The position numbers and the translations under genes were made by a program. From NCBI RefSeq assembly GCF_900103715.1, contig NZ_FNHL01000001.1:725295-789294 (forward strand): 64,000 nt of DNA, written 5' to 3'. Below are positions 27,930-49,013 of the stretch, in pieces; positions within the stretch are counted from its first letter, which is position 1; the number at the start of each line of letters is the position of its first letter. This DNA is from Halogranum gelatinilyticum. GTDB lineage: Archaea; Halobacteriota; Halobacteria; Halobacteriales; Haloferacaceae. The notes beneath the pieces were generated by a model. That model searched no databases, was not told the origin of the DNA, and saw only the letters and a list, made by a program, of their open reading frames with translations.

Positions 27930-28166
27930 GTGAGCGTTAAGTCCGGCCAGCGTCTTCCTGTCGTTGTGACTTCGGTCCACCCGACCTCGATGCGGATGCG
28001 GATGGGGCTCTTCTAGCCACGGGTGGACCCCTCGCGCGGCGGGCCGGTCGGTAACACGACCGGCGGCCGCAGATGGCGAACCCCGCCAGGCACCGACGTC
28101 GGGACCGCTTGCCAACCGACCGAAACCAGCGGGCTTTAGGCCCGTTTCCGAGATATACGAGACAAG
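27930..28166 (+). promoter_or_regulatory. Structured leader region upstream of metG (candidate attenuator)
   Basis: This 237-nt intergenic region holds ordered structure. A weak TATA-like GTTAAG lies at 27936-27941. A perfect 10-bp stem pairs GGTCCACCCG (27974-27983) with CGGGTGGACC (28020-28029), and three Met codons lie in its 36-nt loop. A second hairpin follows: GCCGGTCG (28043-28050), loop of 6, CGACCGGC (28057-28064). CGGTCGGT (28045-28052) can instead pair with ACCGACCG (28115-28122), which excludes the second hairpin. A third short hairpin, CGGGC-TTTAG-GCCCG (28130-28144), overlaps the probable metG TATA element CTTTAGG. The downstream gene is Met-tRNA synthetase, so sensing of Met-tRNA charging is a natural hypothesis. 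Confidence 0.5.
27966..28016 (+). CDS. Possible 16-codon Met-rich leader peptide
   Basis: A GTG start about 27 nt after a TATA-like GTTAAG opens a reading frame coding VTSVHPTSMRMRMGLF and ending in TAG. Three of its last eight codons are ATG, alternating with CGG. It lies directly upstream of metG, and its Met codons sit in the loop of the 10-bp stem described for the leader. It may be translated as a leader peptide whose ribosome senses Met-tRNA. Translation is not shown, and the start could also be one of the internal ATGs. Confidence 0.35.
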   Translation: MTSVHPTSMRMRMGLF

Positions 28167-30266
28167 ATGAGTCACGAGGACTTCCCCACCGAGAACCCGG
28201 CGGTGGTCACCTGTGGGTTGCCCTACGCCAACGGCGACCTGCACGTCGGCCATCTCCGAACCTACGTCGGCGGCGACGTGTTCGCTCGCTCCCTGCGAAA
28301 GCTGGGGCAAGAGACCGCGTTCGTCTCCGGCTCCGATATGCACGGCACGCCCGTCGCGGTCAACGCCGCGAAGGAGGGCGTCACGCCCGAGGAGTTCGCC
28401 CTGGAGTGGCACGAGAAGTACGAGGCGACGTTCCCCAAGTTCAACGTCGAGTTCGACAACTACGGCCACACCCACGACGAGACCAACACCGAGCTGACCC
28501 AGGACATCGTCCGCGCGCTGGACGAGAACGGCCACGTCTACGAGGACGAGGTCATGGTCGGCTACGACCCCGAAGCGGACCAGTGGCTCCCCGACCGCTA
28601 CGTCGAGGGCACCTGCCCGTACTGCGGCGCGCACGCCCGCGGCGACGAGTGTGACGAGGGCTGTCAGCGCCACCTCGAGCCCGGCGAAATCGAAGACCCG
28701 GTGTCGACGCTGACCGGCAACGCCGCCGAGTACCGCGAGCGGACGCACAAGTTCTTCCGCGTCTCCGAGTTCCAGGACTACCTCCAGGAGTTCATCGACA
28801 GGTTGGAGGGAACCTCGAACGCGAAGAACCAGCCGCGGGAGTGGATCGAGGGCGAACTGCAGGACTGGTGTATCACCCGCGACATGGACTGGGGTATCGA
28901 CTACCCCGACGACGAGACTGCCGAGGACCTCGTACTCTACGTCTGGGTCGACGCGCCCATCGAGTACATCTCCTCGACGAAGCAGTACACCGAGCGCGTC
29001 GGCAGCGACGTCTACGACTGGGAGCAGACCTGGAAGGAGGGTGGCGAGATCGTCCACATCATCGGCCGGGACATCATCCAGCACCACACGGTCTTCTGGC
29101 CGGCGATGCTGAAGGGTGCGGGCTACACCGAACCGCGGGCCGTCATGGCCAGCGGCTTCGTCACGCTCGGCGGCAAGGGCTTCTCGACGAGTCGGAACCG
29201 CGCTGTCTGGGCCGACGAGTATCTCGCCGAGGGCTTCCACCCCGACCTCCTGCGCTACTACATCGCCACCAACGGCGGCTTCCAGCAGGACGTCGACTTC
29301 TCGTGGGAGAAGTTCCGCGACCGCGTGAACTCGGAACTCGTCGGCACCGTCGGCAACTTCCTCTACCGGTCGCTGCTCTTCGCGTACCGGAACTACGAGG
29401 GGACGCCCGACGCCCCCCTGTCGGACGAGGTCCGCGAGCGTATCGAACAGGCCCAGTCGGAGTTCGGCGAGGCCGTCAACGACTACAACATCCGCGAGGC
29501 GGGCAACGCAGCCGTTCGACTGGCGCAGTTCGGTAACGAGTACATCCAGCGCAACGAGCCGTGGAAGCTTACGGACGAGGACCCGGAGCAGGCCGCGCAG
29601 GTCATCCGCGACTGCGTCCAGATCGCGAAGGCCATCGCGGTCCTGTTCGAGCCGGTCGCGCCCGAGAAGTGCCAGCGGCTCTGGCGCGGTCTCAACGAGG
29701 ACGGCCAGGTGGCCGACGTCGGCATCGACGCCGCCCTCGAAGAGCCGTCGGCCTCGTTCGACGAGCCGACGGAGCTGTTCGAGAAGATCGAAGACGAGCG
29801 CGTCGAAGAACTCAACGAGAAACTCGAACAGCGCGTCGCCGAGGCGACCGCTGACGACGCAGACGACGAATCGGGCGCAGACGACGACTCTACAGACACC
29901 GACACCGACACCGACGACACCATGACCGAACTCGAACCCCTCGCAGACGACCGTATCAGCTTCGACGACTTCCAGGCACTCGACCTCCGCGTCGGCGAGA
30001 TTCTCGCCGCCGAAGGTATCGAGGGCGCGGACAAGCTCGCGAAGCTCACCGTCGACATCGGCGTCGAAGAACGGCAGATCGTCGCGGGCATCAAACAGCT
30101 CCACGACCTCGACGACCTGACCGGAAAGCGTGTCATCATCGTCGCCAACCTGGAGAAGGCCGAGCTGTTCGGCGTCGAGTCCAACGGGATGCTGCTCGCC
30201 GCGGGCGACCAGGCGGACATCCTGACGACCCACGGCGACGCCGAGCCGGGCACGAAGGTCCAGTAA
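28167..30266 (+). CDS. metG: Methionine-tRNA ligase
   Basis: 699 aa. The class I HIGH motif is HVGH in PYANGDLHVGHLRTY. The KMSKS equivalent is KGFSTSR. A zinc knuckle with paired Cys (CPYCGAHARGDECDEGC) follows residue 145. The anticodon-binding helical domain covers about 380-540. After a very acidic linker (DDADDESGADDDSTDTDT) comes a C-terminal tRNA-binding OB domain of the EMAPII/Trbp111 type (about 595-699: DLRVGEILAAEGIEGADKL). It charges tRNA-Met with methionine. A TATA-like CTTTAGG about 30 nt upstream suggests its own leaderless promoter in addition to any read-through from the structured leader. Confidence 0.97.
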   Translation: MSHEDFPTENPAVVTCGLPYANGDLHVGHLRTYVGGDVFARSLRKLGQETAFVSGSDMHGTPVAVNAAKEGVTPEEFALEWHEKYEATFPKFNVEFDNYGHTHDETNTELTQDIVRALDENGHVYEDEVMVGYDPEADQWLPDRYVEGTCPYCGAHARGDECDEGCQRHLEPGEIEDPVSTLTGNAAEYRERTHKFFRVSEFQDYLQEFIDRLEGTSNAKNQPREWIEGELQDWCITRDMDWGIDYPDDETAEDLVLYVWVDAPIEYISSTKQYTERVGSDVYDWEQTWKEGGEIVHIIGRDIIQHHTVFWPAMLKGAGYTEPRAVMASGFVTLGGKGFSTSRNRAVWADEYLAEGFHPDLLRYYIATNGGFQQDVDFSWEKFRDRVNSELVGTVGNFLYRSLLFAYRNYEGTPDAPLSDEVRERIEQAQSEFGEAVNDYNIREAGNAAVRLAQFGNEYIQRNEPWKLTDEDPEQAAQVIRDCVQIAKAIAVLFEPVAPEKCQRLWRGLNEDGQVADVGIDAALEEPSASFDEPTELFEKIEDERVEELNEKLEQRVAEATADDADDESGADDDSTDTDTDTDDTMTELEPLADDRISFDDFQALDLRVGEILAAEGIEGADKLAKLTVDIGVEERQIVAGIKQLHDLDDLTGKRVIIVANLEKAELFGVESNGMLLAAGDQADILTTHGDAEPGTKVQ

Positions 30267-48243: not shown

Positions 48244-49013
48244 GTCTGTGTCTCCTGTGTCGCGTTCGTGAACCGCTGGACGTTCTCTCGCACGTCTCCA
48301 TCCATAATCGCCGTCCCGACGAGGAGGGCGTCGGCACCGGCCGCCCGCATCCGACGCACGTCGTCGACGGACGACACGCCACTCTCCGCGATGAGTGTCA
48401 CGTCGTCGGGGGCCTCCTGTGCGACCGTCTCGAACGTCGCGAGGTCTACCTCCAACTTGGCGAGGTCACGGTTATTGATACCGATGATGGAAGCACCTGC
48501 CGCGAGTGCCGCTTCCAGCTCTGCGACGCTATGGACCTCGACGAGTGCCTGAAAACCGCGGGACTCCGCGGCCTCGACGAGGCCAGCGAGGTCGTCGACG
48601 AACCGCGCGATGAGCAGAATCACGTCGGACTCGACGACGTCGAGTTGGTCCTCGCGCACGACGAAGTCCTTCCGCAGGACGGGGACGTCGACCGCTTCTC
48701 GAATCCGTTCGAGGTTCTCCGTCGACCCGCCGAAGTGCTCGGGTTCGGTCAGCACCGACAGGGCGGCGGCCCCACCGGCGACCATCTCTTCGGCCAGTTC
48801 GACGGGGTCGTCGTCGCGCGTCCCCTCGGTCGTCGGACTGGTCGGCTTGACCTCCGAGATGATCGGGACGCGGCCGTCGGCTTCCACAGCGTCGAAGGCG
48901 TCGGTGAGCGACCGTGCGTCGACGGCGAGCCGTTCCGACCCGCCCTCGCGCTCGGCGGCGGCGTCGAGAATAGCGCGCACCGCTGGCGCAACCTCTTCCT
49001 CGTTAGCGTTCAT
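48240..49013 (-). CDS. trpC: Indole-3-glycerol phosphate synthase
   Basis: 257 aa TIM barrel. [16 protein letters not shown] holds the catalytic Lys of the KPTSP motif. [30 protein letters not shown] with the general-acid Lys, [30 protein letters not shown] and [16 protein letters not shown] follow in family order. It forms indole-3-glycerol phosphate from CdRP. It is the first gene of trpC-trpB-trpA-aroA'. The ATG at 49011-49013 (MNANEEEV) is preferred. Two TGTACA palindromes sit in the promoter directly upstream. trpD, trpE, trpF and trpG are not in the window. Confidence 0.96.

Follow-up and report, generated by a model that had tools for sequence, protein, structure and literature searches.

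The DNA immediately upstream of metG in Halogranum gelatinilyticum is likely to be an amino-acid-sensing leader, one that would read the position of a ribosome, or the charging of its tRNA, on a short frame with repeated Met codons. Compared across genomes, the metG leader with its Met codons emerges as a conserved haloarchaeal element, and the copy in the window (the whole 64,000-nucleotide stretch analysed here) is real. As matching Phe and Trp leaders lie before pheS and trpS2, archaea probably sense amino acids through the moving ribosome, a form of control that our literature search found for bacteria only. Our confidence attaches to the sensing; for any particular output of the leader it is much lower.

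Architecture of the metG leader

The first-pass annotation of this region had described a GTG-started frame of 16 codons with Met-Arg-Met-Arg-Met, a 10-bp stem enclosing a 36-nt loop and a second hairpin, all of whose coordinates proved exact on the sequence. Its core idea, that the frame senses Met-tRNA on behalf of metG, draws strong support from the comparisons reported here, through the frame, its Met codons, the AT-rich box, a hairpin that covaries and keeps its spacing, and cognate Phe and Trp leaders that the other genes tested lack. The parts are as follows.

27936-27941, plus strand: AT-rich (TATA-like) box GTTAAG of the putative distal promoter, 30-25 nt 5' of the GTG
27966-28016, plus strand: leader frame (uORF) with GTG start, 16 codons VTSVHPTSMRMRMGLF and TAG stop at 28014-28016; leaderless translation predicted
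27974-27983, plus strand: strand 1, GGTCCACCCG, which pairs with strand 2 in competition with P1; partly conserved
27990-28004, plus strand: three putative sensing Met codons, at 27990, 27996 and 28002
28014-28088, plus strand: post-stop RNA element P1, a conserved rod-shaped hairpin found by model R1
28020-28029, plus strand: strand 2, CGGGTGGACC, the 5' strand of P1, carrying the internal-loop GGA at 28025-28027
28043-28064, plus strand: apical hairpin of the rod, with conserved loop GTAACA (28051-28056) and covarying stem
28075-28085, plus strand: strand 3, GGCGAACCCCG, the 3' strand of P1, carrying the internal-loop GAA at 28078-28080
28120-28146, plus strand: metG-proximal promoter-like motif CCGAAACCAGCGGGCTTTAGGCCCGTT, a TATA-like box in a GC-rich inverted repeat
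28167-30266, plus strand: metG, methionyl-tRNA synthetase, 699 aa

Six nucleotides on from each Met codon of the window leader stands either the next Met codon or Gly. Strands 1 and 2 are exact reverse complements over 10 bp with 36 nt between them, the apical stem pairs GCCGGTCG (28043-28050) with CGACCGGC (28057-28064), and the internal-loop GGA lies 11 nt 3' of the uORF stop codon.

A leader frame with conserved Met codons

One search yielded upstream DNA for 80 haloarchaeal metG loci. Many of these have a short frame that encodes Met-Arg close to its end, about 170-360 nt 5' of metG, and more than half have no recognised leader. The leader peptides read VNSVHPTTTMPMRMRLF and VNSVRPTTMVMRMRPF in Halogranum, VTATGLPDNMRMRxxF in Haloferax, VTRxxRxGMRMRSF in Halorubrum, MTTHAVASRSMRMQR and MTTRAVVPVCSHPMRM in Natrialbaceae, and MRRTAHPVASPMRSQR in Haladaptatus. 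A second set, of 66 distinct elements, was collected by RNA structure alone with no selection for Met codons. Met codons nevertheless lie just 5' of the hairpin in all 66, always in one frame only, and an in-frame ATG falls within the last 12 codons before the stop in 58 of them, as against 3 and 5 for the other two frames, although such counts overstate independence, given the shared descent of the sequences. Of the eight exceptions, at least six have a leader that visibly runs on into the hairpin in a different frame. Met leader frames that lack the usual stop and end inside or beyond P1 occur at loci L013, L065, L113, L128, L129 and L130.

The codon that follows an internal ATG is CGN in 102 of 116 cases, with C (45), T (30), G (21) or A (6) as its third base; synonymous change through all four bases is expected if it is the peptide that has been kept rather than the DNA. 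The well-kept Met-Arg dipeptide and the single internal Met codon of some leaders would also fit a conserved micropeptide, or a nascent peptide that stalls the ribosome in response to some other signal. We consider this improbable, as the peptide beyond Met-Arg is hardly conserved between genera and the kept residue switches to Phe at pheS and to Trp at trpS2, cognate each time.

A covarying hairpin after the stop codon

The covariance model R1 starts at the stop codon and includes nothing of the preceding frame. Searched against 391 haloarchaeal genomes it matched 57, with one match in each (the E-values of covariance models are rough), and the gene 3' of the match was metG in 56 of the 57, the remaining match lying at a contig end; P1 of the window scores 68 bits. 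Since R1 finds a single site per genome, which is metG wherever the gene can be read, other Met genes are without P1 at that threshold, and the idea of a methionine regulon sharing the hairpin was rejected for these 391 genomes.

In 21 Haloferacaceae sequences, 85.9% of the pair cells of P1 are standard pairs, and its covariation score is 0.425 versus 0.193 for shuffled alignments and at most 0.199 with the partners slid. The internal loop consists of GGA opposite GAA, and both it and the apical loop are constant. In nearly all metG leaders examined the GGA lies 11 nt after the stop, preceded by a variable base (T, C, A or G). When the window sequence 3' of the stop is folded alone, P1 is what forms. 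The apical loop of Haloferacaceae reads GGTAACR; that of Natrialbaceae and Halomarina reads GGTCATACGG or nearly so (GGTCGTACG in L037), mostly with the Met anticodon CAU (L037, L039, L045, L049, L051, L062, L068, L074, L019). We considered and rejected the idea that the apical loop mimics the tRNA-Met anticodon, since the leaders read show CAU in Natrialbaceae and Halomarina only; a kink-turn of the L7Ae type was likewise rejected, the GGA/GAA loop having no three-nucleotide bulge beside tandem G-A pairs. Rfam 15 gave no match to the window leader at E up to 1 and, for eight other leader loci, two weak snoRNA matches only, below the cut-off.

Loops as constant as those of P1, and the CAU in the apical loop of Natrialbaceae, are features that a protein- or ligand-binding RNA might have, acting for example in autoregulation by MetRS or as a riboswitch, in which case the small frame would merely sit at the transcript start or tune access to P1. 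The GGA/GAA core is, however, common to pheS leaders and is therefore not Met-specific, the Haloferacaceae loops are without CAU, and Rfam offers no match. The conservation of the frame and its Met codons, and the Trp codons kept at trpS2 despite a different RNA, also count against the binding RNA, which we consider improbable. Chance is far less probable still. Short frames and stems are to be expected in GC-rich intergenic DNA, stems being common at high GC, and the single-sequence fold z-score is only -2.0, but the element is conserved, covaries and keeps its position, and three synthetase genes have leaders rich in the cognate amino acid, which leaves almost no room for coincidence.

The competing stem

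The first-pass annotation had also held that the stems of the leader switch, and this stood in part. The conserved switching element is the P1 rod (28014-28088), of which the hairpin at 28043-28064, itself conserved, is merely the tip; the alternative pairing of CGGTCGGT (28045-28052) with the complementary ACCGACCG (28115-28122), by contrast, was not seen outside Halogranum on inspection by eye. The 10-bp stem of strands 1 and 2 belongs to the minimum-energy structure of the full window leader. Stems in related registers turn up in Halogranum, most Haloferax and several further genera, with strong versions in the first two groups; Halorubrum lacks the stem, which is therefore no universal part of the mechanism. 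Comparison of the DNA upstream of metG bore out the covariation of P1 and the conservation of the Met codons; the 10-bp stem is conserved in part.

Cognate leaders at pheS and trpS2

Met-rich leader frames were found at 22 of 80 metG loci versus none of 163 other loci. The same kind of count gave Phe-rich frames at 24 of 31 pheS loci and at 8 loci elsewhere, and Trp-rich frames at 5 of 6 loci of trpS2, a second, bacterial-like trpS, with none elsewhere. The haloarchaeal pheS frames end in GFGFFF or similar and lie about 120-330 nt 5' of the gene; in the Halogranum genome, outside the window (L181; G000:C1, about 10.4-10.7 kb, minus strand), pheS has the Phe leader MTSESDVVTPVRRATTSGFGFFFDA and a hairpin with the GGA/GAA core. 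Across pheS leaders the hairpin has the same GGA/GAA internal loop as at metG, and it covaries (0.382 versus 0.146). The metG model R1 picks up several of the pheS hairpins at their expected position, the best of them, at 26.4 bits, in the window's own genome; the reverse search, from the pheS model to metG leaders, was weak. Of 292 genomes searched with the pheS model, 136 gave a match, in many cases lying at pheS by coordinates.

Upstream of trpS2 the frame contains WRWW, WRWR or WRW. The Halogranum copy, also outside the window (L219; G000:C1, about 239.5 kb, minus strand), has the Trp leader frame MQSAPDCRCWRWWPHVSGADSLVVARAVA. The RNA of the trpS2 leaders differs from that at metG and pheS, the P1 core being absent from four of five and weak in the fifth. 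A stem inside the trpS2 leader frame (CCGCTCCC/GGGAGCGG in relatives) places the Trp codons in a loop.

It is tempting to see in these leaders a haloarchaeal class of Met, Phe and Trp leader-peptide regulators that respond to where the ribosome stands on a leaderless frame, with a GGA/GAA rod shared by the Met and Phe members as the switch and with a mechanism of termination or translation unlike the bacterial hairpin and U-tract; we regard this broader proposal as evenly poised between right and wrong.

A model for sensing of Met-tRNA

Comparison of sequences and prediction of structures provide the conserved frame, its Met codons, their spacing from the covarying P1, and the cognate leaders at pheS and trpS2; to these we add, by inference, a transcript start, translation, stalling, a direction of control and an output step. 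In 65 elements AT content peaks at positions -31 to -26 relative to the leader start, and most frames begin about 30 nt after this box, a spacing that would fit a leaderless haloarchaeal transcript; the leader starts are predictions, picked partly by the box. The last Met codon has its first base 18-24 nt 5' of the 5' strand of P1 in most elements. From the size of a ribosome, P1 is expected to stay free while one pauses on the Met codons, and to have its 5' strand covered by one that stands at the stop.

Transcription is predicted to start at or beside the GTG, and we propose that the leader frame would consequently be translated, leaderless, during its emergence. With ample Met-tRNA, the ribosome would pass the Met codons, reach the stop and cover the 5' strand of P1; after its release there, strand 1 would be free to pair with strand 2, to the exclusion of P1. 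If Met-tRNA ran short, the ribosome would instead pause at the Met codons, 18-24 nt further 5', covering strand 1, and strand 2, thereby left free, would allow P1 to form. P1 would then raise metG output from the distal promoter, either through continued transcription or by aiding translation of metG.

Promoter-like motifs and possible outputs

A separate promoter for metG had been suspected from the sequence of the window, and a metG-proximal promoter-like motif is indeed present at 28120-28146; it is conserved in loci with and without the leader, and its presence beside metG could make the leader marginal. Within the inverted repeat at 28129-28145 the matched arm changes between lineages (GGGC/GCCC, GGGT/ACCC), and this repeat has a higher mean stability at loci with the leader, in a comparison that does not correct for kinship.

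Between the leader stop and metG there is no U-tract terminator, the longest T run being 2-3 in 51 of 64 leaders and 4-5 in the other 13. H. volcanii can terminate transcription at a hairpin motif, to 59% in one reporter (PMC7237163), and components of its transcription and translation machineries co-purify (PMC8576121), so the output at metG might be transcriptional; it might just as well be translational.

Relation to known regulators

The closest analogy to the leader described here is the ribosome-mediated attenuation of bacteria, in which the ribosome follows RNA polymerase, as in E. coli pheM-pheST, trp and his. The resemblance lies in a short frame with cognate codons before a synthetase or biosynthesis gene, a stem-loop directly after it and a possible alternative pairing, the last here in some lineages only. 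The haloarchaeal leader differs in being archaeal, in its apparently leaderless frame, in the GGA/GAA rod of the Met and Phe members, in the second promoter-like motif before metG and in having no U-tract terminator; because of this last difference we do not place it in the bacterial attenuator family.

T-box riboswitches also control synthetase genes by tRNA charging, as is putatively the case here, and GGGTGGACC has a superficial similarity to the T-box sequence GGGUGGNACC. A translated frame would be the sensor here, however, there is no Rfam T-box match, and the base before GGA varies. E. coli thrS, which is autoregulated through a tRNA-like operator in its mRNA, likewise has a structured RNA in a synthetase mRNA leader; the haloarchaeal leaders differ from it in their conserved frame with cognate codons, predicted to be translated, and in having no consistent anticodon mimic.

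A literature search confined largely to openly accessible papers turned up no earlier report of amino-acid-specific leader peptides in archaea. Among the uORFs with mapped starts in a transcription start site map of H. volcanii are one of 26 aa before pheS and one of 23 aa before Trp-tRNA ligase (Babski et al., 2016; PMC4983044), lengths that match our Phe leaders (26 aa in several Haloferax) and a Trp leader (23 aa in one Haloferax). The uORF table of that paper does not include metG and its section 12 deals with neither amino-acid content, RNA structure nor a sensing role; the start sites published there for such leaders are those of H. volcanii pheS and trpS only (PMC4983044). The present proposal offers an explanation for these H. 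volcanii uORFs, which were mapped without a function. If it is right, archaea too use the logic of the bacterial leader peptide, built from parts of their own, simple codon swaps in Haloferax volcanii, which is genetically tractable, become a test of functional coupling between archaeal transcription and translation, and haloarchaea gain a natural amino-acid-responsive expression element.

Leaders at other genes

The possibility of a leader at every synthetase gene was rejected, nothing comparable being present at tyrS, trpS1, valS, leuS, thrS, serS, proS, glyS, cysS or hisS. Nor does trpC (indole-3-glycerol-phosphate synthase; about 48276-48932 of the window, minus strand) have a Trp-rich leader frame in the window or in 13 relatives. 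Before ileS of two Haloferax (L274, L277), about 270-350 nt 5', lie frames ending in SLIIAGQ and SPIIAGQ, possibly an Ile leader, which as two cases are too weak to call. Finally, one type of thrS (L302, L303, L308) is preceded, about 100 nt 5', by short frames that are not Thr-rich and that have an FT motif in common.
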